Positions 2,556-17,284 of a stretch of 20,900 nt of DNA are shown here, piece after piece. Origin of the DNA: a virus. The stretch is taken from IMG/VR virus record IMGVR_UViG_3300023429_000010, positions 1 through 20,900 of that record; one strand, written 5' to 3'. A program made the position numbers and the translations under genes. The stretch's first letter is position 1; the number at the start of each line of letters is the position of its first letter. The notes under the pieces were generated by a model. The model saw only the letters and a list, made by a program, of their open reading frames with translations, had not been told where the DNA came from and did no database searches.

Positions 2556-4343
2556 CTAGATCATTTTGAACTGATCAAGATAGTCTTTAACTTCTTCGGT
2601 TATTTCTTTAGGCTTATAGTTTATCACATTATCGGGCAAGTCTTCAACTCGCCTTGGCTTATCCCTGAAGGTATGAATTTCTATTTCTCCAAAGTTATCC
2701 CTGGGCGTGTGAGAGATAGCTCCAAAGATAGACCCACATACAGCGTCGGCCAGGTCTTTAGAGCTTTTGCGGGGGTGATCCACCCTGTTGTTTTTCATAA
2801 TCTTAAGCTGGGTAAGTTCGTCAAACAACAACTCAATCGCTGGGAGGGCTACCCTGTCTTCATAGATAAGCATGGCCATATCTTCATAGTGCTTCTTGGC
2901 TACCGATACCGTCTCTGTTCTAATCCCTACAGCGTTTAGCTCATTTTGAATATCAAATGATTGCCAGCGGTCAAAGCTAACCATACCCAAGTCAAAGCCC
3001 TGTCTTCTTAAGTTTTGAATCCACTGCTTTACTTCTGAAAGGTTGACTGGCCCCTCTACCCTTGGCTCCCACCAAGCAACAGCATCTACCACGACAACGG
3101 GAACAACCTGCTCATAGTCTTTCATTACTTGAATGCTTACCCACTTGTCTACGTGAGCAATGGCTACGGCACACTTGTCATGCTTTTGAGCAAGGTCGGC
3201 GTGAACAAAATATTTTACTCCTTCTTTTGGTTTAAAGTTTGAGTCGAATCTTCTGAAAGTGTCCAGAGGATTTCTGATTGTCATTGCAGACCTTACCTTG
3301 TCTTGTTGCTTAAAGAAGGCATCTGATGCAAAGGTAGGGACACAGGCAAAACGCATCATGGCATCTCCAATGTCTGTGTAGAATGCTAATTTAAAGTCAT
3401 CAATTTTTCTAGTGGGGTTTACTTCCCAGGTGGGCCTCTTTAATGCAAAGATTCCAGGATACTTGTATTGCAAGATGTGATCTTCGTCCCACGAAATTTC
3501 TAAATTGTTTCCGACAGAGTCTTCTGGCAACTCTGGATTCATTACAAACTTATGAGTTCTTTGAATAATTTCTTTGTCCATAATGGCATCGTCGTATTTG
3601 GTAGATATAAAGTCTCCTGGATACCTGGGGAATGACAGCAACACCACCTTGCCAAGATCTGGAAAACGAGAATCTACAGTACCACGGAAAGCCTTGTATA
3701 TGTTGTCAGCTGTCTTGCCCTGTTCGTTGCCTGTGTTTGTTTCACTAGCGAAACCAGAGATCTCATCAAGGATAGCGACCATCAGGTTCAACCCCTCATG
3801 AGACTCCCGTTCGGAGTGCCCAGAGTAAACAGTGACGGAATGATCAAACTCTATAGAGTCCATCTTAGCATAGTACCTACCAGCAAACCAGGGGGACTTC
3901 TCAATCTTGGTCTTAAAGCCCTTAAAAAAAACGTTCTTAGCCTGCTGTGCGTTGATAGCAATGTTGATAATATCAATGGCGTCACCAGATGGCTTACCGT
4001 AGTATCTAGCTGGGTCTTTAAGGCATAGTAGTTTATATACTATATACGATACTGCAACGGTAGATGTAAAGTCTTTTCCGCTACCCTTGCCAAGCTGAAG
4101 AATAATCTCATTCTTAGTAAACTTATTATAATATCTAGCCCCCTCTTCAAAACCCATCAAAGCCTGAAGATCTTCTTTTTTGTATATCTGACTCATGCCT
4201 TCTACAACGTCATATTGAATAGAAGATAGTGGTGGCTGGGCCAAATAATTTTCTCCCTCAACAAATGTTTTAGCATCTACCGGCTCTTCGTTAAAGGGAC
4301 TGTCCTGAAGAACTTCTAGGAAATCATTAAAGTCACTAGGCAT
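2556..4343 (-). CDS. terL: Terminase large subunit (packaging ATPase and nuclease)
   Basis: This is the DNA-packaging motor: it cuts concatemeric phage DNA and pumps it into the prohead using ATP. The 595-residue protein shows the two expected domains. The N-terminal ATPase has a Walker A-type loop at residues 84-91 (LGKGSGKD), a Walker B segment with D193 and E194 (VAILDEIS), and a coupling motif near 235-240 (LLSFPR). The C-terminal RNase H-like nuclease has three acidic sites: D383 (FVHADLA), D458 (MVSFDRWQ) and D530/D533 (KDLADAVCG). The ATG start overlaps the terS stop by 8 bases. The gene is followed by ribonucleotide reductase genes rather than portal and head genes, which is an unusual neighbourhood. 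Family assignment is strong from the ordered motifs. Confidence 0.95.
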   Translation of the reverse strand: MPSDFNDFLEVLQDSPFNEEPVDAKTFVEGENYLAQPPLSSIQYDVVEGMSQIYKKEDLQALMGFEEGARYYNKFTKNEIILQLGKGSGKDFTSTVAVSYIVYKLLCLKDPARYYGKPSGDAIDIINIAINAQQAKNVFFKGFKTKIEKSPWFAGRYYAKMDSIEFDHSVTVYSGHSERESHEGLNLMVAILDEISGFASETNTGNEQGKTADNIYKAFRGTVDSRFPDLGKVVLLSFPRYPGDFISTKYDDAIMDKEIIQRTHKFVMNPELPEDSVGNNLEISWDEDHILQYKYPGIFALKRPTWEVNPTRKIDDFKLAFYTDIGDAMMRFACVPTFASDAFFKQQDKVRSAMTIRNPLDTFRRFDSNFKPKEGVKYFVHADLAQKHDKCAVAIAHVDKWVSIQVMKDYEQVVPVVVVDAVAWWEPRVEGPVNLSEVKQWIQNLRRQGFDLGMVSFDRWQSFDIQNELNAVGIRTETVSVAKKHYEDMAMLIYEDRVALPAIELLFDELTQLKIMKNNRVDHPRKSSKDLADAVCGSIFGAISHTPRDNFGEIEIHTFRDKPRRVEDLPDNVINYKPKEITEEVKDYLDQFKMI

Positions 4344-5139: not shown

Positions 5140-6165
5140 CTACTCCTTAGCGTGTGGTTTAGTTTCATGTAATGAATTACTCGATACTTTATTATACACG
5201 CTATCGGCTTGGAAGTCAACAAGATTCTCTACCCCCGTATACGACAGGGCACTTCGCAATCCATTAGCAAAGTCATTAATAATATTACTAACACTTCCAA
5301 CAAAAGGAACCCTAGTTGAGATACCCTCTACACCAGAAACAAAGCCCCTGCCGTCCTCCTGTGCCTCCTTAGACGCCATTCCTCGAAAGACTTTATGTCC
5401 GTCTACAACATGTCCTGGAGACTCTTCTGTTCCGGCAAGCATTCTACCGACCATTACGGCGTTTGCCCCAGCAGCCAAAGCCTTAGCAGCGTCACCAGAG
5501 TTCCTGATCCCACCATCAGCGATTAAGCTTGGGCCTTCTCCATAGTAAAACTTTTCTCTAATGTTCATGATAGAAGCAAGAGTCGGTACTCCGTGAGCAC
5601 TAACCACTCTAGTGGTGCAGGCTGAACCACCGCCAATACCTACTCTGATAGAATCTGCTCCAGCATCTCCCAGCCTAGCAAATCCATCCCAGGTTGCAAC
5701 GTTTCCAGCCATAAGGTGAACATCCCTAGGAATCTCTTTCCGCAAAAGCTCAACGGCGGTTATTGCATTTTGATTGTGACCATTTGCAACATCTACTAAA
5801 ATAAGGTTTGCTCCAGCCTCGATAAGCATCATAGCGTCTTCTATAAATGCTTTACGAGCTCCGACAGATCCTCCTACATTCCTGTGGTCTTTCTGTGCCC
5901 TAGACATTCTAGCCATAGAAAGCTGTTCTTCGAGTGGCATATACCTATGAAGGATACCCATCCCACCAAGATTATCCATAGCCTCTACCATTTCCCATTC
6001 GCAAACGGTGTCCATTGGTGCTGCAATAATCGGCAGCCCAAGCTCTATTCCATTTCCTAGATTAGTAGCAAGAGAAACATCCTTTCTGCTTTCTATTCCA
6101 GAATGCTGGGGTACCAGCAAGATGTCGTCAAATGATAAATGTTCCTTATTACTATACTGTTTCAT
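5140..6165 (-). CDS. IMP dehydrogenase / GMP reductase family protein without CBS domains
   Basis: This 341-residue TIM-barrel enzyme belongs to the GuaB/GuaC family, which interconverts IMP with XMP or GMP using NAD(P). Motifs in order are SFDDILLVP (11-19), APMDTV (49-54), GGMGILHR (67-74), VDVANGH (124-130), MAGNVAT (152-158), the catalytic-cysteine loop [11 protein letters not shown] with C183, and the phosphate-binding [11 protein letters not shown] (215-225). No CBS module is inserted. The catalytic flap after FRGMAS is short and lacks a clear Arg-Tyr pair, so the sequence does not decide between IMP dehydrogenase and GMP reductase. I place the start at the ATG at 6165, preceded by AAGGAG, rather than the TTG at 6180, whose extension would translate through that ribosome binding site. 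It overlaps the previous gene by 14 bases. Its 3' end contains a likely promoter for the terminase block. Confidence 0.92.
5191..5219 (-). promoter_or_regulatory. Sigma-70-like promoter inside the GuaB-like gene, ahead of the terminase block
   Basis: Read on the minus strand, TTGACT (5219-5214) is followed after exactly 17 bases by TATAAT (5196-5191). That is five of six and six of six matches to the bacterial consensus with optimal spacing. Transcription would start near 5184, giving a leader of roughly 45 bases to the TTG start at 5137. It would drive the 100-residue gene, terS, terL and possibly nrdI-nrdE. It lies inside the C-terminal coding region of the GuaB-like gene. Activity is not shown. 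Confidence 0.55.
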
Positions 6166-6424
6166 TTCTCTCCTTAGCAATTAAAAGTAATACTAAATAC
6201 CCAATGAGGTCAAAGATGGTGTCGTCTCCTGGATACTCGTGACCTCTCTGTACCCTGGAAAGTTTGTCGTCAATACGAACGTAGAGCTGTTCAATGTTAT
6301 CGTTCTTTGAAAACATTCTTACTGGCTCTAAGGCAGAGTCTCCATACGCCCTGTTCTTTTCTATTAACATCTTCTGGATGCCAGACATTACCCGCTCTAT
6401 GCTCTCTTCTGTCTCTTTACTCAA
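6152..6424 (-). CDS. Small MazG-like / DUF1599-type (nucleotide modification associated) protein
   Basis: This 90-residue helical protein has a pattern I associate with the DUF1599, or nucleotide modification associated, family: an early K-x4-YG (K23 to G28), then a P-x2-MF segment (P34-F38), then RIDDKLSRVQR (50-60), and finally FDLIGYLVLL (71-80). The regularly spaced acidic and basic residues resemble all-alpha NTP pyrophosphatases of the MazG type, but the exact reaction is unknown to me. It starts at a TTG at 6424 with AAGGAAA upstream; that start overlaps the stop of the preceding 51-residue gene as TTGA. It overlaps the GuaB-like gene downstream, so the two may act together on purine nucleotides (inference). 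Confidence 0.8.
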   Translation of the reverse strand: MSKETEESIERVMSGIQKMLIEKNRAYGDSALEPVRMFSKNDNIEQLYVRIDDKLSRVQRGHEYPGDDTIFDLIGYLVLLLIAKERNETV

Positions 6425-6588: not shown

Positions 6589-7164
6589 TCAAGTCAGCTT
6601 GTTCCAATTATTTATGGCATAGTGCCCTATACCAACGGCATCTGCCACGTCGTTGTCTTCTATCTTTCTGTCATAAATAGTATTAACAAACCTAATAGTT
6701 CTTTGTTTCCTAAACTCTCTCTCCCTGGTCTTATACCAAGACTCACTTCTCTCAGGACTACCGACTCTCAGGTTTGCCTTTTCTGGATTGGTAAGCCTAC
6801 CATTTCCTATAAAGGTTTGCCAAGCAATAGGATTAATTGATTTAATAATCTTTACCCCAGACATAGACATCGCACCGAGCATAGCCCCTTGAACCAGTGC
6901 AAGATCTGCGGCGGTCTTTGGACTGTTGATAAAAACAGTGTGCTCAATTACAATGGCTTCTGGTATTCCATAGTGATCAAAGAATGCCTTAGTCTTGGCT
7001 GCGGCGTCTCCAACCTTGTTGTAGGTTGTGTACCCTGTAAAGTTAATCTTTCCAATAGATTCTAGGTTGTCTTCATAGAAAAAAGCAAAGGCAAGGTTAT
7101 TCGTGCTTGCATCAATAGAGCAGATGGTTTTTGGTTTATTCGTTATCTGGCTTAGCTTTACCAT
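6589..7164 (-). CDS. RuvC-like Holliday junction resolvase
   Basis: This 191-residue protein has an RNase H-like fold with the ordered acidic sites of RuvC-family resolvases: D18 (CSIDAST), E74 (IVIEHTV), and D172 and D175 near the C terminus (DNDVADAVGIGH). The spacing of the last two matches the closing DxxD motif. Such enzymes cut four-way junctions formed during recombination and clear branched DNA before packaging. The ATG at 7164 lies inside the 3' end of the zinc-finger gene (29-base overlap), and no better start exists before D18. It sits downstream of RecA-like and Cas4-like genes, consistent with a phage recombination module. Strong family call; substrate preference is inferred. Confidence 0.88.
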   Translation of the reverse strand: MVKLSQITNKPKTICSIDASTNNLAFAFFYEDNLESIGKINFTGYTTYNKVGDAAAKTKAFFDHYGIPEAIVIEHTVFINSPKTAADLALVQGAMLGAMSMSGVKIIKSINPIAWQTFIGNGRLTNPEKANLRVGSPERSESWYKTREREFRKQRTIRFVNTIYDRKIEDNDVADAVGIGHYAINNWNKLT

Positions 7165-7435
7165 TAGCCAACCCCTTTATTTCTCTAAGAGTTTTATGAA
7201 CATCTTTTGGATTTACTAAACAAGAAAAGCAAAGAGAGTCATCGTTGTATGCAGACAGCTTGGACTCGCATAGCTTGCAAAGTCTTTCTTGTTTCATCCT
7301 ACGATGACGTCTTTCAACAGAATAGCGTTGAGCTATCTTTTCTTTTGTTGCTTCTTCCCTGCATTCGGGAGAGCAATATATTTGATAGGTTACTTTTGGA
7401 TTAAATGATGTGTCACACCATTGACAATGCTTCAT
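7136..7435 (-). CDS. Small protein with two four-cysteine zinc-finger motifs
   Basis: I do not recognise a named family. The 99-residue protein has two cysteine quartets. The first is C4, C7, C21 and C25 (CQWC and YCSPEC, an FCS-like pattern); the second is C53, C56, C69 and C72 (CKLC and CFSC). A basic helical linker (residues 31-52, including RRHRRMKQER) separates them. This layout suggests two zinc-binding modules that hold DNA or a partner protein. I see no HNH signature between the fingers, so I do not call it an endonuclease. It starts with ATG at 7435 and overlaps the Cas4-like gene by 23 bases and the RuvC-like gene by 29, which places it within the nuclease cluster. Confidence 0.85.
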   Translation of the reverse strand: MKHCQWCDTSFNPKVTYQIYCSPECREEATKEKIAQRYSVERRHRRMKQERLCKLCESKLSAYNDDSLCFSCLVNPKDVHKTLREIKGLANGKAKPDNE

Positions 7436-8201
7436 CTATAGGCTCCAGAGATTTTAGTTTTATGTCTCCCTTGCCAGCATCGTCGCAAACTGCCCGCAGG
7501 GGACATGATTTGCAAATCTTTGAATTAGAACGATATACCTTCTCTGGCATGGTTTTATTTTCCCATGCCTTACGGACGGTTCTCATCCATTCAAATGCTT
7601 GATCTACCCACTTTATGTAGTACTCGTTTACTTCAACAGGAATAGCCAACAGCTCGTGGTTATTCTTGTTCTCATAAATGAGGACACCTTTTGCTTTCTT
7701 AAGAATCTTCATATAGATAAGGATCTGAATCAGGTGACCAGTCTTTGCCTTACGACTATTCTTTCGATACTCAAACCCCTCGGCCATTGCCGTCTTGATC
7801 TCTCCGAGAAGTTCTTCTCCCTGCCAATCAAGGATGACGTCACCGTAACCAAAGATAGGAGGGTCTTCATTTACAATCTTAAACTCTGAGTCGATAAGGA
7901 TTCCTGCATCGCCCATAGCCTGCTGAATTCTTTCGTGCGACTTAGTGCCATTGGTCATGTTGGCACCAGCAAAGGCGTCTGCGTTGTCTTCAAAGGTACC
8001 GCCTTCAAAGGCTAGATACCAATACCTGGCACACTCTCCATGCCCATAGGCAATTGTAGATGGAGCAAAGCTTTTCTTTTGCTGATGACGAGGACCACGC
8101 TTAGCAATATATCCAGAATTAATCTTTTGAATTAGTGCATCCATATTAGCTTTGTCTATCTGCTTGGGACCCATCACTTGTTGCAATAAATTTTTTGACA
8201 T
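7413..8201 (-). CDS. Cas4/RecB-like PD-(D/E)XK exonuclease with predicted iron-sulfur cluster
   Basis: This 262-residue protein matches the Cas4-type nuclease layout. Visible features in order are a lone N-terminal cysteine C57 (HGECARYWYLA), H89 (KSHERIQ), D121 (FGYGDVIL), E134 and K136 (LGEIKTA), the QxxxY motif Q159-Y163, and a C-terminal trio C230, C233 and C239. One early plus three late cysteines is the arrangement that binds a 4Fe-4S cluster in Cas4 and AddB-type enzymes. In phages such proteins are thought to resect DNA ends for recombination. No CRISPR repeats or other cas genes are in the window, so I treat it as a recombination nuclease. Its ATG is four bases after the preceding stop. 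Confidence 0.9.
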   Translation of the reverse strand: MSKNLLQQVMGPKQIDKANMDALIQKINSGYIAKRGPRHQQKKSFAPSTIAYGHGECARYWYLAFEGGTFEDNADAFAGANMTNGTKSHERIQQAMGDAGILIDSEFKIVNEDPPIFGYGDVILDWQGEELLGEIKTAMAEGFEYRKNSRKAKTGHLIQILIYMKILKKAKGVLIYENKNNHELLAIPVEVNEYYIKWVDQAFEWMRTVRKAWENKTMPEKVYRSNSKICKSCPLRAVCDDAGKGDIKLKSLEPIDEALSMV

Positions 8202-8205
8202 AATC

Positions 8206-8514
8206 TTATCGGGTAATATATTTCAAAGCTGCTACCAGATCACTGATAGCTGAAGCTGCTGTAAAATATATATTCTTTTTAGCCCTATCTCCTTTATCTA
8301 CGTTAGCCATCCAGGTAGCTCTGAAAGACATCTTTGCTGCAATTGCTTGCAACCTAACAATCTCTAGTGTTGCTACATTAATCGGGATGTCTGGCTTTAG
8401 GATAAGCTTTGCAATTGTTACGAGAGCCTGTGTAAGCTCTTCGTCCTCCATGTAATCTGCTATTTCCGAAAGACCATTTACCAAATCAATCGTTGTTTTG
8501 TTTTCTTCCACCAT
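8206..8514 (-). CDS. Helical protein of unknown function
   Basis: This 102-residue product is predicted to be all helical and soluble, with an acidic N-terminal half and a basic C-terminal half. Its central segment (IVRLQAIAAKMSFRATWM, residues 52-69) and the closing helix ending in ALKYITR have the look of a conserved phage family, but I cannot name a function. The ATG is at 8514, four bases after the exonuclease stop. A GTG follows immediately as codon 2. A TGCTATAAT extended -10 element overlaps the upstream stop, and an AAGGTG that could act as a ribosome binding site lies ten bases before the ATG. Between two nuclease genes, a DNA-repair accessory role is possible. Confidence 0.8.
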   Translation of the reverse strand: MVEENKTTIDLVNGLSEIADYMEDEELTQALVTIAKLILKPDIPINVATLEIVRLQAIAAKMSFRATWMANVDKGDRAKKNIYFTAASAISDLVAALKYITR

Positions 8515-8517
8515 ATT

Positions 8518-8527
8518 ATTATAGCAC
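8518..8527 (-). promoter_or_regulatory. Extended -10 promoter element before the 102-residue gene
   Basis: On the minus strand this reads GTGCTATAAT, a perfect TATAAT with the TGn extension. No -35 match lies 16-18 bases upstream. The same ten bases recur at 18801-18810, also just before a gene start. TATAAT lies only three bases before the ATG and six before the GTG that is codon 2, so initiation there would give a nearly leaderless message. It overlaps the stop codon of the exonuclease gene, so coincidence is possible. Confidence 0.35.
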
Positions 8528-9127
8528 CTTCTCAGGGTCTGAGATTTCTCGCTTCTCTTTAATGCTTACACTGCTTGCACCAGGAAGCCAAGGAACAAGA
8601 ACCTGGTATAATTCTTCAAGTAGTACTACGTCTTGGATCTGATACTTTTTCATTTCTGCCCAGGACTTGCCGTTGCCCTCCATGCAGCCAATCCAAAGAT
8701 CAAAGCCTGAGTGCTTGAACTTTGACCCAACGCCTAGGGCTTGTGCCACATAGTCAAGCTTGTTTGATGGGAACTTGAAGTTAGCCTTAACAACACTCAT
8801 AAGGTCAAGATCTTTAACTACAGATGGTGGAGCCATTCCATTTTCAAGGAACTCCCTCTTAATATGCTTGTGGTCAAAAGCCGCTGAGTTCCACCCAATA
8901 AGGATGTCTGCTTCTTCCATCATGGAGTGTAGCTCTTTAAGCATAGCTTCCTTGCCATCGTGATGTACGGACTTAAAGGTTACCTTCTTTTTGCCCTGCC
9001 ACTTGGCACCAAAGCACAGCATTTCGGTAGGCTTGATGATTTGATTAATACCAATATTTTGGTCCCAAAGGCCCCAGGTATAAACTTGCAGAGGTGTTGT
9101 TTCAATATCTAGCATTAGAATTTTCAT
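8519..9127 (-). CDS. DEDDy-type 3'-5' exonuclease (PolB-exonuclease-like)
   Basis: This 202-residue protein is a stand-alone exonuclease of the DnaQ/PolB superfamily. Exo I is at the start (LDIETT, with D7 and E9), Exo II is GWNSAAFDHKHI with D85, and Exo III is YQIQD with Y162 and D166. The tyrosine four residues before the last aspartate makes it DEDDy rather than DEDDh. The family removes nucleotides from 3' ends. The DnaE polymerase here has its own intact PHP site, so this enzyme may serve repair, recombination or additional proofreading. It overlaps the upstream nuclease gene through ATGA (4 bases), indicating coupling. Confidence 0.9.
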   Translation of the reverse strand: MKILMLDIETTPLQVYTWGLWDQNIGINQIIKPTEMLCFGAKWQGKKKVTFKSVHHDGKEAMLKELHSMMEEADILIGWNSAAFDHKHIKREFLENGMAPPSVVKDLDLMSVVKANFKFPSNKLDYVAQALGVGSKFKHSGFDLWIGCMEGNGKSWAEMKKYQIQDVVLLEELYQVLVPWLPGASSVSIKEKREISDPEKVL

Positions 9128-9417
9128 TTGCTATCTCTCTCTTCTATCAATTGTTCTAGCAAGGACATCTCTATGACCGCTAGTCTTGTTTTGTTTCCTG
9201 TTTCTCCTAGTACTACTACTATAGCAGGATCTTTGTGAGACTTCAAGGCATCAGTTGTTGCTTTTGCCCAGACATCTTTGTTTAAAGTAAATGACTTGCC
9301 GACTTCTTTAAAGTCAATGACAAAGTTGTGCCATGAGGCATCTCCCTTTTTTGTATTACGGCCAGAGTTTTTGTGTAGCTTTGCTCCGATACGTTTACCT
9401 TCAGACCTTTCGCTCAT
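9124..9417 (-). CDS. Small PD-(D/E)XK-type nuclease, resolvase-like
   Basis: This 97-residue basic protein resembles small phage Hjc/VRR-like nucleases of the PD-(D/E)XK fold. Likely active-site positions are D26 in KKGDASW and the D35-x-K37 pair in FVIDFKEVGKSF, followed by a helix (LNKDVWAKATTDAL) and a PAIVVVLGE strand. Such proteins act on branched or damaged DNA. The middle acidic residue is Asp rather than the commoner Glu, a change the fold tolerates. The ATG at 9417 has a strong GAGGAG site just upstream, and the stop overlaps the exonuclease start by four bases. The assignment is by fold pattern, so medium confidence. Confidence 0.7.
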   Translation of the reverse strand: MSERSEGKRIGAKLHKNSGRNTKKGDASWHNFVIDFKEVGKSFTLNKDVWAKATTDALKSHKDPAIVVVLGETGNKTRLAVIEMSLLEQLIEERDSK

Positions 9418-9580
9418 AGTCTCTCCTCTTTTTTCTTGTTTCTAGTGAGACTACGCTCAAATGTTTGTCTTTACAAACCCATGTAAGCTTCTTGTCTTCA
9501 GGATAGTGCCTAAGAGTTGTTGCAATCCCCTTACAGGTTTTGCAAACAAATACTCCAGGATGTAGATTATAGCGAGACAT
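9401..9580 (-). CDS. 59-residue zinc-ribbon-like protein
   Basis: This short frame fills the space between the RecA-like and nuclease genes. It begins with ATG at 9580 inside the last codons of the RecA-like gene and ends with TGA at 9403-9401, overlapping the next gene by 17 bases. The product has a CxxC pair (C13, C16 in FVCKTCKG), then C36 and H40 (WVCKDKH), a plausible four-ligand zinc ribbon, and a basic tail (KKRRDYERK). I do not know its function. The compact overlaps on both sides and the metal-ligand pattern argue for a genuine gene, possibly one that contacts nucleic acid or RecA. Confidence 0.75.
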   Translation of the reverse strand: MSRYNLHPGVFVCKTCKGIATTLRHYPEDKKLTWVCKDKHLSVVSLETRKKRRDYERKV

Positions 9581-10580
9581 CGAGCCCCTGCAGTAGTTTT
9601 TTTTGCAGATCGAGATCTTCTTTTACTCGCTCTACAAAGGCGTCTCTTCCCTGAAGCTTTGTACCATCTTCAAGCTGGTACCATGCCCCAGTCCTATGGA
9701 CTAACCCATTGGCTTCTGCTGTATCTACTAGGTCAGCAATGCTGTCCACCCCGATGAAGGGACCGCGATAGTAGAAATCATACTCTCCAGAATCTCCAGG
9801 AGCTGATGTCTTTGAGTTAGTTACTTCCCAACGAACTTTTCTACCAATCTTTTGCTCAATTAGCTTGTCTCCAGATTTAATCTTGCCCTTAATGGCTTGA
9901 GAATCTGACGCAGAAGAAAATAGCTTTACGATAGTAGAAGACATAAACTGTGTTGTTTGTCCTCCAGTGGGCACCTGCTGCGTATACATTGCGTTAATGC
10001 TGTTGCGTGACTGAGAAATGGCAATTATCAAAGTTTTATTATCTTTGTTATTTGCCCAGTTAATCATAAGCCAAGCGTGCTTAAGGTCTTTAGACTCTGC
10101 ACCAATCTGTTTTGTGTTTTCTAAAGGCTTTAGCTCATCAGAGTCTTTTTCAAAGTAGACTGCTGGCAAGAGAGAGCTGATGCTGTCAATTACAATAATG
10201 TCTACCCCTGCAGAGATCAGCCCCACGGCTGCCTCAACCATATCGTTAATGCTTCTTGCCTCAGAGTAGATTAACTCTTCTGTCTTAACTCCAAGCTTCA
10301 TCGCCCATGCCTCGTCATAAGACATCTCTGCATCGATCCAAGCACACAGCTTTCCTTCTTTTTGAGCTAGAGCAATAGTCTGTAAACAAACAGAAGACTT
10401 GGCACTAGACTTGCTGCCCCACAAAAGAACCTGTCGCCCATAGGGAAAGCCCCCGCCTAAAGCCCTGTTGAGTCCAGCACTAGGAGTCGGCTGCATCTCT
10501 GTAGTAATGTTGATGGCTGGGCCAACTTTTTTTCTTAGCTTGGGATCTAGCAGAGCTAGAGCCTCTTCAATAGTAGTCAT
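9567..10580 (-). CDS. RecA-like recombinase
   Basis: This 337-residue protein aligns in layout with RecA: an N-terminal segment, then a P-loop at residues 55-63 (GSKSSAKSS), the WIDAEMSYD strand with candidate catalytic E85, a Walker B strand ending at D132 (IIVIDSISSLLP), and a QSRNS segment around 194-198 like the RecA ATP-sensing region. Relative to E. coli RecA (K72, E96), K61 and E85 share an offset of 11. The P-loop is odd: the usual glycine before Lys is Ala60 and the closing Thr is Ser. It probably forms filaments on ssDNA for phage recombination. The ATG overlaps the preceding TAA by one base (TAATG), with no clear ribosome site of its own. Confidence 0.93.
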   Translation of the reverse strand: MTTIEEALALLDPKLRKKVGPAINITTEMQPTPSAGLNRALGGGFPYGRQVLLWGSKSSAKSSVCLQTIALAQKEGKLCAWIDAEMSYDEAWAMKLGVKTEELIYSEARSINDMVEAAVGLISAGVDIIVIDSISSLLPAVYFEKDSDELKPLENTKQIGAESKDLKHAWLMINWANNKDNKTLIIAISQSRNSINAMYTQQVPTGGQTTQFMSSTIVKLFSSASDSQAIKGKIKSGDKLIEQKIGRKVRWEVTNSKTSAPGDSGEYDFYYRGPFIGVDSIADLVDTAEANGLVHRTGAWYQLEDGTKLQGRDAFVERVKEDLDLQKKLLQGLDVSL

Positions 10581-10897
10581 TAAAAACGAACACCATGCCT
10601 TTCTGGACGTGTCTTGTTGTATTCTGATTTTCTTTCCATAGCGTCATCCAAAGAATGCTCTACATAACCATAATCATACATTCCTCGCCAAAGGTCAAGA
10701 GTCCTGATTAGAATGTCTGCCAACTCCTCGACGACTTCCTGGCTGCCCTTGTCTTTACGAACTGCCTCCATTACCTCTGTAACCTCAGACACGATCATCA
10801 TGCACTGCTTGGCAATAAAGATATCGTCTACTGTGTGATTCCAGAAGCCTTTCTCTACCGCTGTTTCGTGTAACCTACCTGCAATTTCTTCAAACAT
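10580..10897 (-). CDS. MazG-like nucleoside triphosphate pyrophosphohydrolase
   Basis: This 105-residue helical protein carries the metal-binding signature of MazG-type enzymes: ExxE at E38 and E41 (IVSEVTEVMEA) followed by ExxD at E58 and D61 (EELADILIRTLD). A closing NKTRPERHG segment (94-102) resembles the family's C-terminal motif. Such enzymes hydrolyse NTPs or dNTPs to monophosphates, and phage versions are proposed to tune nucleotide pools or alarmone levels. I place the start at the ATG at 10897, preceded by GGAGGAAATAC. A longer frame reaching 10957 would only add residues that read through the 3' end of the DnaE gene and this ribosome site. It overlaps dnaE by 8 bases and the recA-like gene by 1. 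Confidence 0.9.
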   Translation of the reverse strand: MFEEIAGRLHETAVEKGFWNHTVDDIFIAKQCMMIVSEVTEVMEAVRKDKGSQEVVEELADILIRTLDLWRGMYDYGYVEHSLDDAMERKSEYNKTRPERHGVRF

Positions 10898-13800
10898 GTA
10901 TTTCCTCCAATATGACTGTTCCATCTTTTGTTTTTCCAAAAGAGAATTTGTACGCATTACCCTCCTGTATTTTCATATACGCCTGAGCAAACGTCGTTGG
11001 AAACACAAGAATAGAGTGTAGCTCTCTCGACGAATCTGCTAGCGTTAGCGTTGCCATTTTCTTTCCAGCCTTAGTAATCCTTGGCTTAAAAGAAACAACA
11101 AACATTTCTTCTTCACTAAATGGCAGTTGCCTATAGTTTAGAAATTTAATTAAAGCTGCATCAGATTTCTTGATATCATCGGCTGGAATTGCAGAAACAA
11201 TCCTGTTATCACTAGCAAGAAGAATGTATGTCTTCCCTGTTTCAATAGTGGTCTGCTCTTCATCAAAGATACCAACCGAACCAGTCTTATCCAAGATCTC
11301 TACCCTAGACCAGCCCTTGCCCCTCTTGATGGCTTTTACCATACCGATTAGGACAAACGAACCTTTCTCCTCAAACTCTTCAACGTCATTAATAAATGCG
11401 TGATAGTGCTGAGGAATAGTAATGTTGAACTCTGGCAGGTTTAGATATTCATATAAGTTTTCTCTAACCTCGTTGTCGTTTCTTGGGTTGTCTTGAAAAG
11501 TTGCTGCACCAATAATTCTAAGTGCTTGCAAAGATCTACTGTTTACTCCCGTGCCCTTTTTTGCCACAAAGTCTTCTAGCTCTGCATAAGAGTTGAAGGG
11601 CCTGTTCCCTATTAATTTAGAGGCAACGTTATCTGATATGTATTTAATTCCGGATAGTCCGAAACGTATACCCTTGCCTTCAATCTTAAAATCATTATCA
11701 GAATCGTTGACATGGGGCAAACGAATGGGAATGTTCATCCGCTTTGCCTCAATCAAATAGTCAGTCCTAGTGTCTTTGTCTTTTTCGTTCTTGAGAAGAG
11801 CAAACATAAATTCAATTGGGTAATAGTACTTTAGCCATGCTGTCCAGTAGGACAAGGTAGAGTACGCTACAGCATGTGATTTGTTAAATGAATACCCAGC
11901 GTGGGCCTCAAAGTCGTGCCACAATTCTCTTGCCACGTTTGGAGACATAAACCTCGATGCACCGTCTACAAACTTATCCTTAAAGATATCAAACTCTTTG
12001 GCATCTTTTTTCTTACCAATGATCTTACGAACCTGGTCTGCCTCAACCATGGTCATGCCGCCGAGCTCCACACAGGCTTGCATGACCTGCTCCTGGTAAA
12101 GAATACACCCGAATGTTTCAGCAGTAAACGTCTTCACAACATCGTGAGAATACGTTGTCTTTTGTCTGCCGTGCTTTCTTTCGATGTAGTCTTTTCCAAT
12201 TGTGTTCATTGCTCCAGGTCGGACAAGTGCGTTAGAAGCCGCTAGCTCTGCAAAGTTTCTCACACCCATCTTGACTAGCAGATTTGTATACGGAGTAGCC
12301 TCACACTGAAACACACCTTTTGTATATCCATTAGAAAGCATTTCGTAAACCTTAGAGTCTTCCATAGCAATGTCTAATAGTTTTATGTCTTTGCCATAAC
12401 GTTCTTTAATAATGTCGAGGACGTCTTTCAAAACACTCAAGGTCTTAAGGCCCAGGGCATCGATTTTAATCAGCCCAATTCTTTCTGCCTCTTCCATGTC
12501 TACCGCTACTACAGGAATACGCTCGCCGCTACCTGGAGAGTTGCGAGTTTCCATAGGAGCATGTCTAAAGATTGGCTCCTTGCTTGTAACTACTCCTGCC
12601 GCATGGATTCCTGTACCGCGTATCCTTCCACGAAGAAGATCTCCATACTTAACAACTTCAGGATACTTCTCGCGGAACCATGATGTGTTTCTTGAGGTAC
12701 AAAAGTCTTCCCAAGTATCCACAACCTTGAGAACCTTGTTTACGTCAGCCAGAGGTATGTGGAGGACTCTGGAGATGTCTCTGACCACGCCTTTACCCTT
12801 GAACTGCAAGAATGTGGCAATAGAAGCAACGTGCCTGTATTGCTTAACAAGATAATCTTTAACCTCTTCACGACGAGTGTCCTGGATATCAGTATCGATA
12901 TCTGGGAAGTCATTACGATCTGGGTTAATAAACCTAAAGAAGAGTAGTCCATGCTTGATAGGGTCAATGTCTGTGATTCCAAGAACATAACACAGCAAAG
13001 AACCTGCAGAAGATCCTCGGCCAGGGCCAACAATAATACCCTGCTTCTTTGCCCAGTTAATCATGTTACGAACAACTAAGAAGTATGGGCCAAAGTTTTT
13101 GGCTTCAATGATGCCCATCTCTTCTTCAAGACGTTCCATATAGCCTTCTTTTTTGTATACACCACGATCCTTCATGCCCTCAATGGCGAGGCTGGACAGC
13201 TCCCCCATCGGATTTTGATACTGTGCTGGCAGGAGGTCAAGGTGATCCTGAATGTTGTATTCCTCTACCTTTTCTGCAATTTCAATTGAATTTGAGTAGA
13301 TGTCTTCTCTGTCAATACCCTGTGCCGTCATGGCTGAGCGCATCTCTTCATCAGAAAGAAGATGTATGTCGAAGTTGGCAAAGCTTATCTGCCTCTCGCC
13401 ATACAAATAGTCCAGTCTTTCCATCAAGTTATCGTATTTTTTAGACTTTTCATATGTCGCTTCTTTTTGAACCTTATTGCTATAAGTATTAAGAATAAGC
13501 TTAATCTCTTGTATTTCTTTTTGTCCCGTGTGTGCATGATGGCAGTCAGGGGTCACGACTGGTTTTACCCCAAATTCATCGGCAAGAGCCAGCAACTGAT
13601 GATTAATTTCTGCTGGGTTGTGGGGCATAACCTCAATATAGTAATCGTCACCAAAGACATTCTTGTGCCATTCAATCTGTTGCTTTGCTGCTGCTAGCTC
13701 TCCAGACTCAATAGCTTTTGCTACGGTACCACTAAGGCACCCAGAAGTAACAATGATTCCTTCTTTGTACTTTGACAAAACGTCGTAATCAATACGTGGT

Positions 13801-14162
13801 TTCTTGTAGAATCCCTCTGTCCAGCCAATCTCGTTTAGCTTGTTGAGATTCTCCAAACCTTTTTGACTCTTGGCTAGGAGGACTATATGATTGTAGACAA
13901 GATCAAGGGGACCCTCTCGACTATCCCGATCCCTTTGGTCAAACCTGTCTTCAGTTATATAGCCCTCCACACCAAGTATTGGCTTAATGCCCTTCTCTTT
14001 CGCAGCCCGAAACATCTCCCTGTGTCCAGAAAGAGAACCGTGGTCTGTAATTGCTAAGGCACTCATACCCAGTTCGTGGGCACGATCTACATACTCTTGT
14101 GGGGTAGCTATCCCATCAAAGAGTGAGTAGTGAGTGTGAACATGTAAGCCAACATAGGACAT
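10890..14162 (-). CDS. dnaE: DnaE-type DNA polymerase III alpha subunit with intact PHP domain
   Basis: This 1090-residue replicative polymerase has the full family-C order. The N-terminal PHP domain keeps what look like all nine metal ligands: H7, H9, D16, H41, E66, H92, C142, D206 and H208. The palm has the GPGRGSSAGS loop (379-388), the catalytic PDIDTD with D421 and D423, and the third aspartate D568 (LIKIDALGLKTL). The tail includes ILYQEQVMQ (687-695), FNKSHAVAYS (759-768) and an OB-fold-like segment near residue 970. Intact PHP ligands imply intrinsic 3'-5' proofreading, as in mycobacterial DnaE1. The gene starts 8 bases after the SSB stop with only a weak ribosome site, so it probably shares the SSB transcript. 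Confidence 0.96.
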   Translation of the reverse strand: MSYVGLHVHTHYSLFDGIATPQEYVDRAHELGMSALAITDHGSLSGHREMFRAAKEKGIKPILGVEGYITEDRFDQRDRDSREGPLDLVYNHIVLLAKSQKGLENLNKLNEIGWTEGFYKKPRIDYDVLSKYKEGIIVTSGCLSGTVAKAIESGELAAAKQQIEWHKNVFGDDYYIEVMPHNPAEINHQLLALADEFGVKPVVTPDCHHAHTGQKEIQEIKLILNTYSNKVQKEATYEKSKKYDNLMERLDYLYGERQISFANFDIHLLSDEEMRSAMTAQGIDREDIYSNSIEIAEKVEEYNIQDHLDLLPAQYQNPMGELSSLAIEGMKDRGVYKKEGYMERLEEEMGIIEAKNFGPYFLVVRNMINWAKKQGIIVGPGRGSSAGSLLCYVLGITDIDPIKHGLLFFRFINPDRNDFPDIDTDIQDTRREEVKDYLVKQYRHVASIATFLQFKGKGVVRDISRVLHIPLADVNKVLKVVDTWEDFCTSRNTSWFREKYPEVVKYGDLLRGRIRGTGIHAAGVVTSKEPIFRHAPMETRNSPGSGERIPVVAVDMEEAERIGLIKIDALGLKTLSVLKDVLDIIKERYGKDIKLLDIAMEDSKVYEMLSNGYTKGVFQCEATPYTNLLVKMGVRNFAELAASNALVRPGAMNTIGKDYIERKHGRQKTTYSHDVVKTFTAETFGCILYQEQVMQACVELGGMTMVEADQVRKIIGKKKDAKEFDIFKDKFVDGASRFMSPNVARELWHDFEAHAGYSFNKSHAVAYSTLSYWTAWLKYYYPIEFMFALLKNEKDKDTRTDYLIEAKRMNIPIRLPHVNDSDNDFKIEGKGIRFGLSGIKYISDNVASKLIGNRPFNSYAELEDFVAKKGTGVNSRSLQALRIIGAATFQDNPRNDNEVRENLYEYLNLPEFNITIPQHYHAFINDVEEFEEKGSFVLIGMVKAIKRGKGWSRVEILDKTGSVGIFDEEQTTIETGKTYILLASDNRIVSAIPADDIKKSDAALIKFLNYRQLPFSEEEMFVVSFKPRITKAGKKMATLTLADSSRELHSILVFPTTFAQAYMKIQEGNAYKFSFGKTKDGTVILEEIHV

Positions 14163-14170
14163 ACTAGCGC

Positions 14171-14830
14171 TTACCAGTCAAGGTTAGAGCTAGTAGTTGT
14201 ACCTGCAGACTGATCAAAGCCCAAGTAAAAGGCTTCCTGTTCTGCATATGGAATGTTGTTGAGTGCCATCTCAATTGGGTATGGCTCAGCATTGTTCCAT
14301 TCAAAGGGCTCGGCATCTGGAGCCGATGGGATCAACGTATAGCTGGTATCTGTACCGCTACCGCTTCTCTTAAGTTTCCACTCCATGTTCGAGACGCTGC
14401 CAGTTTCAATGGCGTATTCACGAATAGTGTTGAACACGGACATCTTGCTGACACCCATCGACCAAATTGCAACATATGGCTCTTCGATACCATCGTTAAC
14501 CATTACGTTGCAGTAGAAGCGAAGACGTCCACGCCAACCCGCCTTGGGGTCTTTGCGATGCATCTCTTCTGCCCAGTCACGTCCTTCAGTTTCCATAGTG
14601 TCTACTGCACGACGGCGGAAGTCTTTTGGATTAGTATGCTCTTTTACGACCATCGCTAGTCCACGATCTTCTGAGTAGTTGGCAGAGTCTTCGTCAAGCT
14701 CTTCGAGGAAGCGAATCTTTACTGCCTGTCCATCGGCAAGCTTAAGCCAGCGTACTTTTGGTTTGTTTTCATCATATCTTGGTTTGTCGAGCAGGGCATT
14801 GATGTTTGCTAATCCCTTTACTACGCTCAT
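14171..14830 (-). CDS. Probable single-stranded DNA-binding protein
   Basis: This 219-residue protein lies between the primase and polymerase genes and resembles phage ssDNA-binding proteins of the gp32/gp2.5 functional class. An N-terminal basic segment (residues 15-30) leads into strands rich in aromatic and basic residues (KVRWLKLADGQAVKIRFLEE, 25-44; RGRLRFYCNVMV, 100-111) typical of an OB fold. The last third turns acidic (EPFEWNNAEPYP) and ends in SSNLDW, reminiscent of the acidic tails such proteins use to recruit partners. I see no zinc motif. It has the clearest expression signals in the window: a TTGACA promoter and an AAGGAG site seven bases from its ATG, fitting a protein needed in large amounts. 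Confidence 0.8.
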   Translation of the reverse strand: MSVVKGLANINALLDKPRYDENKPKVRWLKLADGQAVKIRFLEELDEDSANYSEDRGLAMVVKEHTNPKDFRRRAVDTMETEGRDWAEEMHRKDPKAGWRGRLRFYCNVMVNDGIEEPYVAIWSMGVSKMSVFNTIREYAIETGSVSNMEWKLKRSGSGTDTSYTLIPSAPDAEPFEWNNAEPYPIEMALNNIPYAEQEAFYLGFDQSAGTTTSSNLDW

Positions 14831-14861: not shown

Positions 14862-15806
14862 TTATTGTAGCATGGCAGTGATGAGTTTGTCAAAACCAAC
14901 GTCTATTGACCTGATTGCTTCATCGTCCATGTCTCCAATATCTTTGTATTGTTTATCTAGTTGTACTACGGAAACACGAGGACCAATCTTTTCGATGATT
15001 CGATCTTTCATGTTTCCGCCAGCTTCGTCATTGTCTGCAACAACATAGATGTTATTGAAGTACTTGCGAAGAAGTTCTACTTGGATATTTGATACGTTGG
15101 CCCCAAGGGTAGCCACTGCTGGCATACCCACCTGATCTAATCTTATCACATCAAACGAGGACTCTACAACAAATACTTTGCTGGAGCTTTTAACTCTGTG
15201 AAGATTAAACAGAACCTTGCTCTTGGGTAAGCCGGGAGTATTCTTGAAGTCTTTACCTTCTACAGACCGACCAACAAAGCCCACTAGGAGGCCGTCAGGG
15301 GCGTGTACAGGCACTGTAACCATGTCTCTGGTCTCAGAGTACCCCAAAGAAAACTTGTCCATAGACGAGGCAGTGATGCTTCTGCCGTCAAAGTATTCTA
15401 CAGCTCTACTGGAAGACTTTGCCTCAGTGGCAAGTCGATTTACAACAGTCTCGTCAAACGCTAGGTAGTCTGGCTTCTCCAGAAGCTTACTAACTATTTC
15501 GTTTCTAAGATCGGACTCAACCTCATTCTTTTTAATATACCTGGCTGCCTCAAAATATGTTTTTCTAGATACCGTCATTACGAATTCATAAACATCGGCA
15601 ACCTTGTGGCAAGAAAAGCAGTAAAAGGTTCCTGTGTTCTTGTCTATTTCTCCAGCGGGAGTTCTATAGTTTCCGTGATATGGACAAAAAATAATGTAGT
15701 CTGTATCAACTTCACCCTCTATGTCTACGCCGACTCCGGCAAGGATTCTTTTAGTTTGTTGGGGGGATAGTACAGTGCTCGGCTTCCCACTACTCCTGAT
15801 ATGCAT
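14862..15806 (-). CDS. DnaG-type DNA primase (zinc finger plus TOPRIM)
   Basis: This 314-residue primase makes RNA primers for replication. An N-terminal CHC2-type zinc finger is visible as C41, H44, C63 and C66 (FCPYHG and YCFSCHK). The TOPRIM core follows: E215 and D219 (VFVVESSFDVI), then the DxD pair D258 and D260 (VADNDEAGG). It is shorter than bacterial DnaG and has no obvious C-terminal helicase-binding domain. The ATG at 15806 is the only usable start before the zinc finger and lies 82 bases inside the preceding gene, an unusually long overlap. A promoter at 15875-15903 within that gene probably feeds it. It lies in a helicase-primase-SSB-polymerase series. Confidence 0.93.
   Translation of the reverse strand: MHIRSSGKPSTVLSPQQTKRILAGVGVDIEGEVDTDYIIFCPYHGNYRTPAGEIDKNTGTFYCFSCHKVADVYEFVMTVSRKTYFEAARYIKKNEVESDLRNEIVSKLLEKPDYLAFDETVVNRLATEAKSSSRAVEYFDGRSITASSMDKFSLGYSETRDMVTVPVHAPDGLLVGFVGRSVEGKDFKNTPGLPKSKVLFNLHRVKSSSKVFVVESSFDVIRLDQVGMPAVATLGANVSNIQVELLRKYFNNIYVVADNDEAGGNMKDRIIEKIGPRVSVVQLDKQYKDIGDMDDEAIRSIDVGFDKLITAMLQ
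14864..14893 (-). promoter_or_regulatory. Strong sigma-70-like promoter for the SSB gene
   Basis: On the minus strand a perfect TTGACA (14893-14888) is followed after 18 bases by TACAAT (14869-14864), which also has the TGn extension (TGCTACAAT). Transcription would start near 14857, leaving about 27 bases of purine-rich leader with AAGGAG before the ATG at 14830. It overlaps the last codons of the primase gene. The downstream units are ssb, dnaE and onward. Confidence 0.65.
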
Positions 15807-16063: not shown

Positions 16064-17284
16064 CTAGATATCTTCCAAATCCTTGTATTTGTACCAGCCT
16101 TTATCAAAGTCTACCTGTACCATAAACTCCCCCATAAATCCATTACGGTTCTTACGGAATACACACTCAATAACATCACTGTTGCTACCCCGCCCAAGAG
16201 CCAAGACCCAGTCAGCGTCATAAGCAATCTGTCGGGACCATGCGGTCTGACCCAGTGTAGGGACGGTCTCTAGCTTTGTAACGTCGTCTGGCGTAGCAGA
16301 AGAGATGGCTATGATAGGAACCTCTTCCGAGATAGCCATAAGCTTAAGCTCACGAGAAAGATTTTTCATTCTTACAGTTTCGTTGTCTGACTTCTGATTG
16401 GGACTCATGAGTTGTAGGTAGTCTACAATAACAAAGTCTGGCTTGTATTGGTCAATCTTTCCACGCAACACCGATGGATTGATGTCTCCACCAGTATCGT
16501 TAGAAATAATTCTGAATGGTGGCTTGTCCTTAATGTGTCCGGCGTGCCATCTTTTAAGATCCTGAATATCCATCTCTCCATTGCTAATTTTTCGGTGTGA
16601 CCAAAGACCTTCCCCCATAATAGTGTAGGTTCTATTACGAACCTCCGTCTCTGACATCTCAAGGCTAACAACCATTGGCGATCTGCCCTGCTTCCAGGCT
16701 TGCACAGCAAAGTAAAGAGATAGCCAAGACTTACCAATACCAGGATATGCAAGAAATACCCCAAGCTGTCCAGGCATAATACCAGCAGGAAGGTAGTTGT
16801 CAAAGCCTGGCAAGCCAGTCTTGATACCAATAGCCCCAAGCTCTTTTTGTTTTTGCACTGCTTCAAAGTAGGCGACAGCACTATCAATATCTGTAGCGTC
16901 AATGTCTTTAACGACAGAAGTATTTTTCTTTAGCTCAGATGTCTTTGTAATTAGTTTATCAAGGACGGTATTGGCCTGACCATTCTGAACCTCTGTTGCT
17001 GCCCCTCGCAAAATATCTCTAAGGCTATCATTGAGATACTCCGCCTGTAGCTCTTCTAGGTGATGACGGGTTGCGCCAACATCTTCTGCCGGAACAAAGT
17101 CTTTAAACTTTTCGGAAACCAAATGTGTGGGAGGAAGCTCTGCATTATTTTCTGCATACTTCCGTATGAATTCCCAAATGTCATTATGTGTTTTAAAAAG
17201 AGCGTCGACGTTTGCCTGTAGCAGTACGTGGATCTGCTTGTCCTGTAAGACTGCTGAAATTACCTTTGCCTCTACATTATCCAT
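16064..17284 (-). CDS. dnaB: DnaB-type replicative DNA helicase
   Basis: This 406-residue hexameric helicase unwinds the phage replication fork. An N-terminal helical domain (about residues 1-115) is followed by a RecA-type motor. Walker A is AYPGIGKS (179-186), the catalytic-glutamate motif is VVSLEMS with E209, Walker B is FVIVDYLQLM with D288, and a sensor segment is IIAISSATPDD. It is shorter than bacterial DnaB (about 470 residues), chiefly in the N-terminal domain, which is common in phages. The ATG overlaps the preceding gene by 8 bases. The 12 bases after its stop hold a TATAAT for the next gene. Confidence 0.95.
   Translation of the reverse strand: MDNVEAKVISAVLQDKQIHVLLQANVDALFKTHNDIWEFIRKYAENNAELPPTHLVSEKFKDFVPAEDVGATRHHLEELQAEYLNDSLRDILRGAATEVQNGQANTVLDKLITKTSELKKNTSVVKDIDATDIDSAVAYFEAVQKQKELGAIGIKTGLPGFDNYLPAGIMPGQLGVFLAYPGIGKSWLSLYFAVQAWKQGRSPMVVSLEMSETEVRNRTYTIMGEGLWSHRKISNGEMDIQDLKRWHAGHIKDKPPFRIISNDTGGDINPSVLRGKIDQYKPDFVIVDYLQLMSPNQKSDNETVRMKNLSRELKLMAISEEVPIIAISSATPDDVTKLETVPTLGQTAWSRQIAYDADWVLALGRGSNSDVIECVFRKNRNGFMGEFMVQVDFDKGWYKYKDLEDI

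Follow-up and report, generated by a model that had tools for sequence, protein, structure and literature searches.

How a phage DNA polymerase is proofread is the question raised by a 20.9 kb viral record (IMGVR_UViG_3300023429_000010, positions 1 to 20,900; this whole stretch is referred to here as the window), the source of both a DnaE gene and a gene for a separate exonuclease. The dnaE gene (10890-14162, minus strand) is an open frame of 1090 amino acids (aa), and the exonuclease, of the DEDDy type, is encoded at 8519-9127 on the same strand. An initial annotation had proposed that the PHP domain of this DnaE retains the metal ligands of an active proofreader, and that the phage may have two independent 3'-5' editing activities. 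What is observed directly concerns sequence anatomy, conservation, the modelled polymerase fold, gene order and where each of the two genes occurs. Taken jointly, we consider it fairly probable that the PHP domain is the proofreader of the polymerase and that the DEDDy enzyme is an accessory exonuclease of recombination or repair.

The PHP domain and polymerase core of the window DnaE

The PHP ligand set of the window DnaE is complete (9/9, HHDHEHCDH), and H7, H9, D16, H41, E66, H92, C142, D206 and H208 all stand at the residues named in the initial annotation. In a phmmer alignment with Mycobacterium tuberculosis (Mtb) DnaE1 (7pu7), each of the nine pairs with one Mtb ligand, namely H14, H16, D23, H48, E73, H107, C158, D226 and H228 (numbers counted by hand from this alignment). 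PMC5636811 names D23, E73, H107 and D226 as Mtb DnaE1 ligands, describes three zinc ions held by nine residues, and reports loss of the exonuclease in D23N or D226N; the counterparts of these two aspartates are D16 and D206. The motif HHDHEH[C/H]DH, which defines an active-type PHP domain in PMC12926913, is present. Two residues of the Mtb primer path are matched, Y105 by Y90 and K136 by K121, and both Y90 and K121 are invariant across 82 rows of the close clade (the window being counted twice). The residues concerned, together with those of the polymerase site, are as follows.

14136-14144, minus strand: PHP ligands H7 (14142-14144) and H9 (14136-14138), from the Mtb alignment
14115-14117, minus strand: PHP ligand D16 (Mtb D23)
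14040-14042, minus strand: PHP ligand H41
13965-13967, minus strand: PHP ligand E66 (Mtb E73)
13887-13895, minus strand: PHP ligand H92 (13887-13889, Mtb H107) and Y90 (13893-13895, Mtb primer-path Y105)
13737-13739, minus strand: PHP ligand C142
13539-13547, minus strand: PHP ligands D206 (13545-13547, Mtb D226) and H208 (13539-13541)
12894-12902, minus strand: polymerase catalytic D421 and D423
12459-12461, minus strand: polymerase catalytic D568

All three catalytic aspartates of the polymerase are intact. Pfam matches (PF02811, PF07733, PF17657 and PF14579) follow the order of a C-family DnaE, with PHP, alpha NTPase/palm, fingers and HhH; along the chain, the PHP, palm/thumb, fingers and HhH regions are followed by a low-confidence linker and a C-terminal OB-like end. 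An AlphaFold model built on a 37-row alignment had a mean pLDDT of 82.5, with PHP blocks mostly above 84 and one at 71, and resembled Taq PolIIIalpha (Z 44.8, 872 residues, 4.0 Å), E. coli alpha (Z 42.8) and Mtb DnaE1 (Z 41.8). The likeness to Mtb DnaE1 extends over the nine zinc ligands, the Y105 and K136 counterparts and the fold, whereas the window protein has a shorter loop before H92 and a predicted exonuclease activity. A candidate clamp-binding motif, 'YL.LPEF', occurs near residue 905 in 67 of 81 close sequences; the crude pattern used found nothing similar in three isolates. Separately, in L318, L413-L416 and L419-L423 the DnaE match exceeds the query length by several hundred bases, which suggests inteins or introns in phage dnaE, and a match spanning two adjacent annotated genes in OP580517.1 (Hager), OR475287.1 (JDawG) and MT776806.1 (MrMiyagi) suggests a split dnaE.

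By analogy with mycobacterial DnaE1, the nine ligands would bind three zinc ions and the PHP domain would remove misincorporated 3' ends. The window DnaE, as the replicative DNA polymerase III alpha homologue of the phage, would work with the phage's own DnaB helicase, DnaG-like primase and single-strand DNA binding protein (SSB), and would need no separate proofreader.

Intact PHP sites and DEDDh exonucleases among phages

All nine ligands are found in 80/80 close viral relatives (75-86% identity; 81/81 with the window, L001), in 19/24 of the isolates with DnaE that were sampled (identity 22-56%) and in 229/238 viral DnaE of three distant groups (A2, 79/80; A3, 72/78; A4, 78/80). The misses in these three groups are truncated N ends (8), except for L357, where C and Y stand in place of the first two ligands, close to a disrupted start. 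No intact site was found in group A1 (0/32) or in a Klebsiella-phage group (0/46). The total comes to 421 viral and phage DnaE (237 clusters at 90% clustering), with 329 intact at the nine ligands, 82 changed and 10 incomplete; among the loci fetched, the N-terminal half could not be read in two of A3 and nine of the Klebsiella group. The scan patterns for A2 and A4 included D206/H208 and E66, respectively, so that counts are favoured at those ligands; no ligand position was part of the patterns used for A1, A3 or the window clade. Most viral records are fragments, and a viral scan starting from Cellulophaga phi19:2 found no relative. A search that began from the exonuclease gave 63 further DnaE, of which all that were fully readable were intact (51/51), 11 having no N end and one lacking the first four ligands.

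Across 37 viral DnaE (27-86% identity to the window), only 15 columns are invariant in the first 250 residues, and they include all nine ligands; in the 82 close-clade rows, 80 of 250 PHP columns are invariant, again with all nine. A chance occurrence of the ligands is ruled out by this invariance. Among the bacterial DnaE closest to the window, 77/79 readable proteins carry HHDHEHCDH, in a sample biased by being picked for similarity to the window. Rare retention of the set is likewise ruled out by its presence across phage relatives and in these nearest bacterial proteins. Judged by these residues, phages that infect actinobacteria and Firmicutes, and their environmental kin, as a rule have a DnaE with an intact PHP set; the phages that have lost the ligands are mostly those of proteobacteria, with Cellulophaga phi19:2 in addition. 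The view that many DnaE have lost part of the set holds for alpha-, beta- and gamma-proteobacteria and for DnaE2/DnaE3, according to PMC3919608 and PMC12926913, but not for the relatives of the window DnaE.

The same conservation bears on whether the PHP site binds metal in a mainly structural role, with a polymerase that proofreads little on its own. That a metal site may be inactive is seen in the enzymes of E. coli and G. kaustophilus, and mutants in metal ligands are less stable (PMC3666897 and PMC5636811). A structural role alone fails to explain why all nine ligands persist at 22-56% identity when PHP-broken phages manage without them, and in G. kaustophilus PolC, which is inactive, one ligand differs (PMC3666897); we regard this explanation as decidedly unlikely.

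Loss of the PHP ligands goes together with a DEDDh exonuclease. Within flanks of up to 10 kb, our own hidden Markov models (HMMs) found a DEDDh gene in 32/32 A1 loci, 0/80 of A2, 0/80 of A3, 3/80 of A4 and 0/55 of the Klebsiella group. In all 32 A1 loci this gene abuts dnaE, lying just before it on the same strand with -121 to +209 nt between the open frames, and the D-x-E and H-R-A motifs can be read in every one of them except a gene truncated where its contig ends. When whole records were searched with Pfam RNase_T (PF00929), the PHP-broken groups gave 19/19 (A1) and 10/12 (Klebsiella group), and the PHP-intact groups 1/15 (A2), 0/13 (A3) and 0/10 (A4), or 1/38 together. Records of close relatives gave 3/50, each of them a match to the DEDDy gene itself, and 0/44 among those without a DEDDy gene; PF00929 matched in only 3/6 records known to hold the DEDDy gene and is thus a measure of DEDDh, not of DEDDy. 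Among the 24 isolates, four of the five PHP-broken phages scored over the Pfam cut-off (the fifth was weak), against two of the 19 PHP-intact ones, and in one of these two, PJN02, the match fits an exoribonuclease family better. The PHP-broken isolates Pbunavirus, BcepF1 and Bas99 likewise encode a C-family polymerase and keep the polymerase triad, but retain 0-2 of the nine PHP ligands, and it is in their viral group that the DEDDh gene abuts dnaE.

In phages, then, the PHP ligands of DnaE are retained except where a DEDDh exonuclease is encoded as well, a choice of PHP or DnaQ as in bacteria, in a pattern that rests on at most three loss lineages and is confounded with host phylum. For bacterial species with DnaE1 only, PMC12926913 states that most proofread by either PHP or DnaQ, and PMC3666897 describes PHP ligand loss as having coevolved with a separate exonuclease. 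Three A4 (SPbeta-type) loci are exceptions, with a DEDDh gene downstream of DnaE (L380:15099-15674, L381:15099-15674 and L379:13592-14167). Literature searches, which covered subscription papers poorly, listed no paper on a phage-wide pattern of this kind, and novelty is not claimed.

The DEDDy exonuclease and its cargo slot

Along transcription, the minus strand encodes a replication and recombination cassette in the order given below, in which the initial annotation had correctly placed the stand-alone DEDDy exonuclease as the fourth gene after dnaE.

16064-17284, minus strand: DnaB-like replicative helicase (profile matches)
14862-15806, minus strand: DnaG-like primase (profile matches)
14171-14830, minus strand: SSB (PHROG match)
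10890-14162, minus strand: DnaE-type (C-family) DNA polymerase III alpha homologue, 1090 aa (Pfam and phrog_405)
10580-10957, minus strand: MazG-like open reading frame (ORF; profile matches), which as called overlaps the dnaE end by 68 nt, or by 8 nt from an inner ATG (10897)
9567-10580, minus strand: RecA/UvsX-like recombinase (profile matches)
9124-9417, minus strand: 97-aa ORF with a PHROG 'Holliday junction resolvase' (HJR) match, left border of the cargo slot
8519-9127, minus strand: stand-alone DEDDy exonuclease, 202 aa (phrog_403; PF13482 RNase_H_2)
8206-8514, minus strand: 102-aa ORF (phrog_9818), right border of the cargo slot
7413-8201, minus strand: Cas4/RecB-like nuclease (profile matches)
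6589-7164, minus strand: resolvase, named by gene order only from the place of the annotated RuvC resolvase of phage BillNye (no Pfam match)
5140-6180, minus strand: IMP dehydrogenase (IMPDH)/GMP reductase family gene (PF00478, E 1.5e-93)

Further small ORFs precede the IMPDH-family gene, which is found in few relatives and is followed nearby by NrdI and a large ORF. The latter is presumably a ribonucleotide reductase (RNR), by reading alone, and a 595-aa ORF (2556-4343; no Pfam match) we take, also by reading alone, to be a terminase.

The DEDDy start codon and the stop codon of the preceding gene overlap (ATGA). The DEDDy gene product matches both the phrog_403 HMM and the residue pattern D-x-E, D, Y-x3-D, and D7, E9, D85, Y162 and D166 are conserved in 21/21 full-length sequences aligned. 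The DEDDh signature of DnaQ/epsilon is absent from these 21 sequences, which have Y162 instead of His, and a regular expression found no Q-x-x-[LMI] clamp-binding-like motif in the protein. Its fold model was poor (pLDDT 56.4); Foldseek gave nothing at E 0.001 or below, and its best matches, integrase cores at E 0.011, are not meaningful. A search of solved structures returned nothing at E <= 1.

The cargo slot, bordered by the HJR ORF on one side and the phrog_9818/Cas4 genes on the other, was compared in the 80 close relatives: 20 carry the DEDDy gene there, 30 have nothing in it, 15 have other proteins, and in 15 it lies off the contig. The gene is thus missing in 45 of the 65 relatives with a visible slot, with PHP ligands unchanged. 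Searches with phrog_403 covered the records of the 80 close relatives, the 24 DnaE isolates and 50 distant records; they gave 20/80 (18/40 and 2/40) in the first set and, for DnaE phages outside the window clade, weak matches at places where PF00929 had found a DEDDh-type gene. No DEDDy-bearing relative in culture was found. At least four state changes of the gene are required on the DnaE tree, counting only rows with a visible slot. The slot is a variable cargo slot in an otherwise fixed cassette. In one relative it carries a sodium/hydrogen exchanger gene (L076:15317-16501, plus strand; PF00999, E 4.3e-33), and in L019, L024, L026, L033, L054, L056, L063-L065, L067, L069, L072 and others it is filled by runs of paralogous proteins, one to five per run and about 180-280 aa long (a single homology cluster takes in 42 such ORFs, and the one tested had no Pfam match). 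Replacement of a weakened PHP domain by DEDDy is ruled out by the nine ligands being kept with or without the gene and by PHP divergence relative to the polymerase core, a crude ratio from 40 hand-picked rows of 81, which is not higher with DEDDy (0.76 and 1.34) than without (1.16 and 1.60).

The scan that started from the exonuclease yielded 79 new loci, with the HJR ORF upstream in 75/79 and phrog_9818 downstream in 78/79. This association with the recombination end, not with nucleotide genes, argues against a main role of DEDDy in host-DNA breakdown or nucleotide salvage, which we hold to be very improbable, even though RNR, NrdI and the IMPDH-family gene lie on the same fragment.

Probable division of labour between the PHP domain and the DEDDy protein

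Whether DEDDy instead serves the window DnaE as a second proofreader, in trans and with no stable complex between them, in the way that mycobacterial DnaQ is reported to act beside PHP, deserves closer weighing. DEDDy shares strand and cassette with dnaE, its five catalytic residues are kept, and 63 of the 79 exonuclease-first loci hold a window-type DnaE, the other 16 being too short upstream to tell. Its PHROG name, 'DNA polymerase exonuclease subunit', is a name and not a test. A precedent exists in mycobacteria, for which PMC12926913 describes two editors together, PHP plus DnaQ. Against this stand the absence of an epsilon-like DEDDh signature and of a clamp motif, a gene that does not adjoin dnaE, unlike phage DEDDh genes, and its absence from 45/65 close relatives. 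Sister proteins also occur beside DNA polymerase I (Pol I) enzymes with their own exonuclease domain: the phrog_403/PF13482 proteins of Microbacterium phage Pumpernickel and Arthrobacter phage Ichor (54% and 47% identity) share the DEDDy residues, but these phages encode such a Pol I, DnaE having been sought only within the annotation shown. Read by eye, the Pol I exonuclease domain has the DEDDy residues in Ichor and, in Pumpernickel, Glu at the place of one Asp. The phrog_403 family is therefore not tied to editor-less polymerases. Nor need stand-alone DEDDy-like enzymes be proofreaders, since MrfB of Bacillus subtilis, a DnaQ-superfamily exonuclease with a DEDDy-like structure, works in DNA repair (PMC11194089). 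We consider a second proofreader rather unlikely. Of the two editing activities first proposed, the one within the polymerase is favoured by a PHP site of the active type that belongs to an otherwise intact replicative DnaE and is conserved in a broad range of phages; DEDDy as the second editor of the same polymerase is not borne out.

The preferred assignment is that the PHP domain, as its residues suggest, most likely proofreads and that DEDDy most likely works with the surrounding recombination genes, as an accessory 3'-5' exonuclease that would act in repair, recombination or the processing of ends together with the RecA, resolvase and Cas4-like genes; the split of labour between the two would follow from these roles. 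Several points weigh against it. Of the Mtb primer path, S100, S102 and W137 face alignment gaps in the window DnaE, and an E. coli PHP domain with restored ligands bound zinc but gave no clear PHP exonuclease (PMC3666897), so that the ligands alone do not prove activity. Phages elsewhere, such as BillNye and PJN02, pair an intact PHP site with a DEDD enzyme. The overlap of the DEDDy gene with the preceding cassette gene and its position near the clade base on the tree indicate that it is not a casual passenger, and its losses may be as frequent as its gains.

Among the closest known systems, that of the Stanwilliamsviridae (Streptomyces phage BillNye and kin) has a DnaE-like protein with about 56% identity over the whole protein and 9/9 PHP ligands, in the same gene order (helicase-primase-SSB-DnaE-...-RecA-HJR-...-RecB/Cas4-...-RuvC). 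It differs in that the DEDDy phrog_403 gene is absent from the whole record and that BillNye has a DEDDh-type RNase_T gene elsewhere (record 61081).

It is also conceivable, although we think it unlikely, that the clade replicates with two chemically different editors, a zinc PHP domain in DnaE and DEDDy in trans, the latter gained and lost as cargo. If true, such a clade would break the one-proofreader pattern (PHP or DEDDh) of phage C-family polymerases. The window polymerase is ordinary for its group, and the wider pattern is the more useful result: phages have PHP or DEDDh, much as the bacteria described in PMC3666897 and PMC12926913. Phages of the window clade with and without DEDDy in the same slot offer a natural experiment on what a second editor is worth for fidelity.

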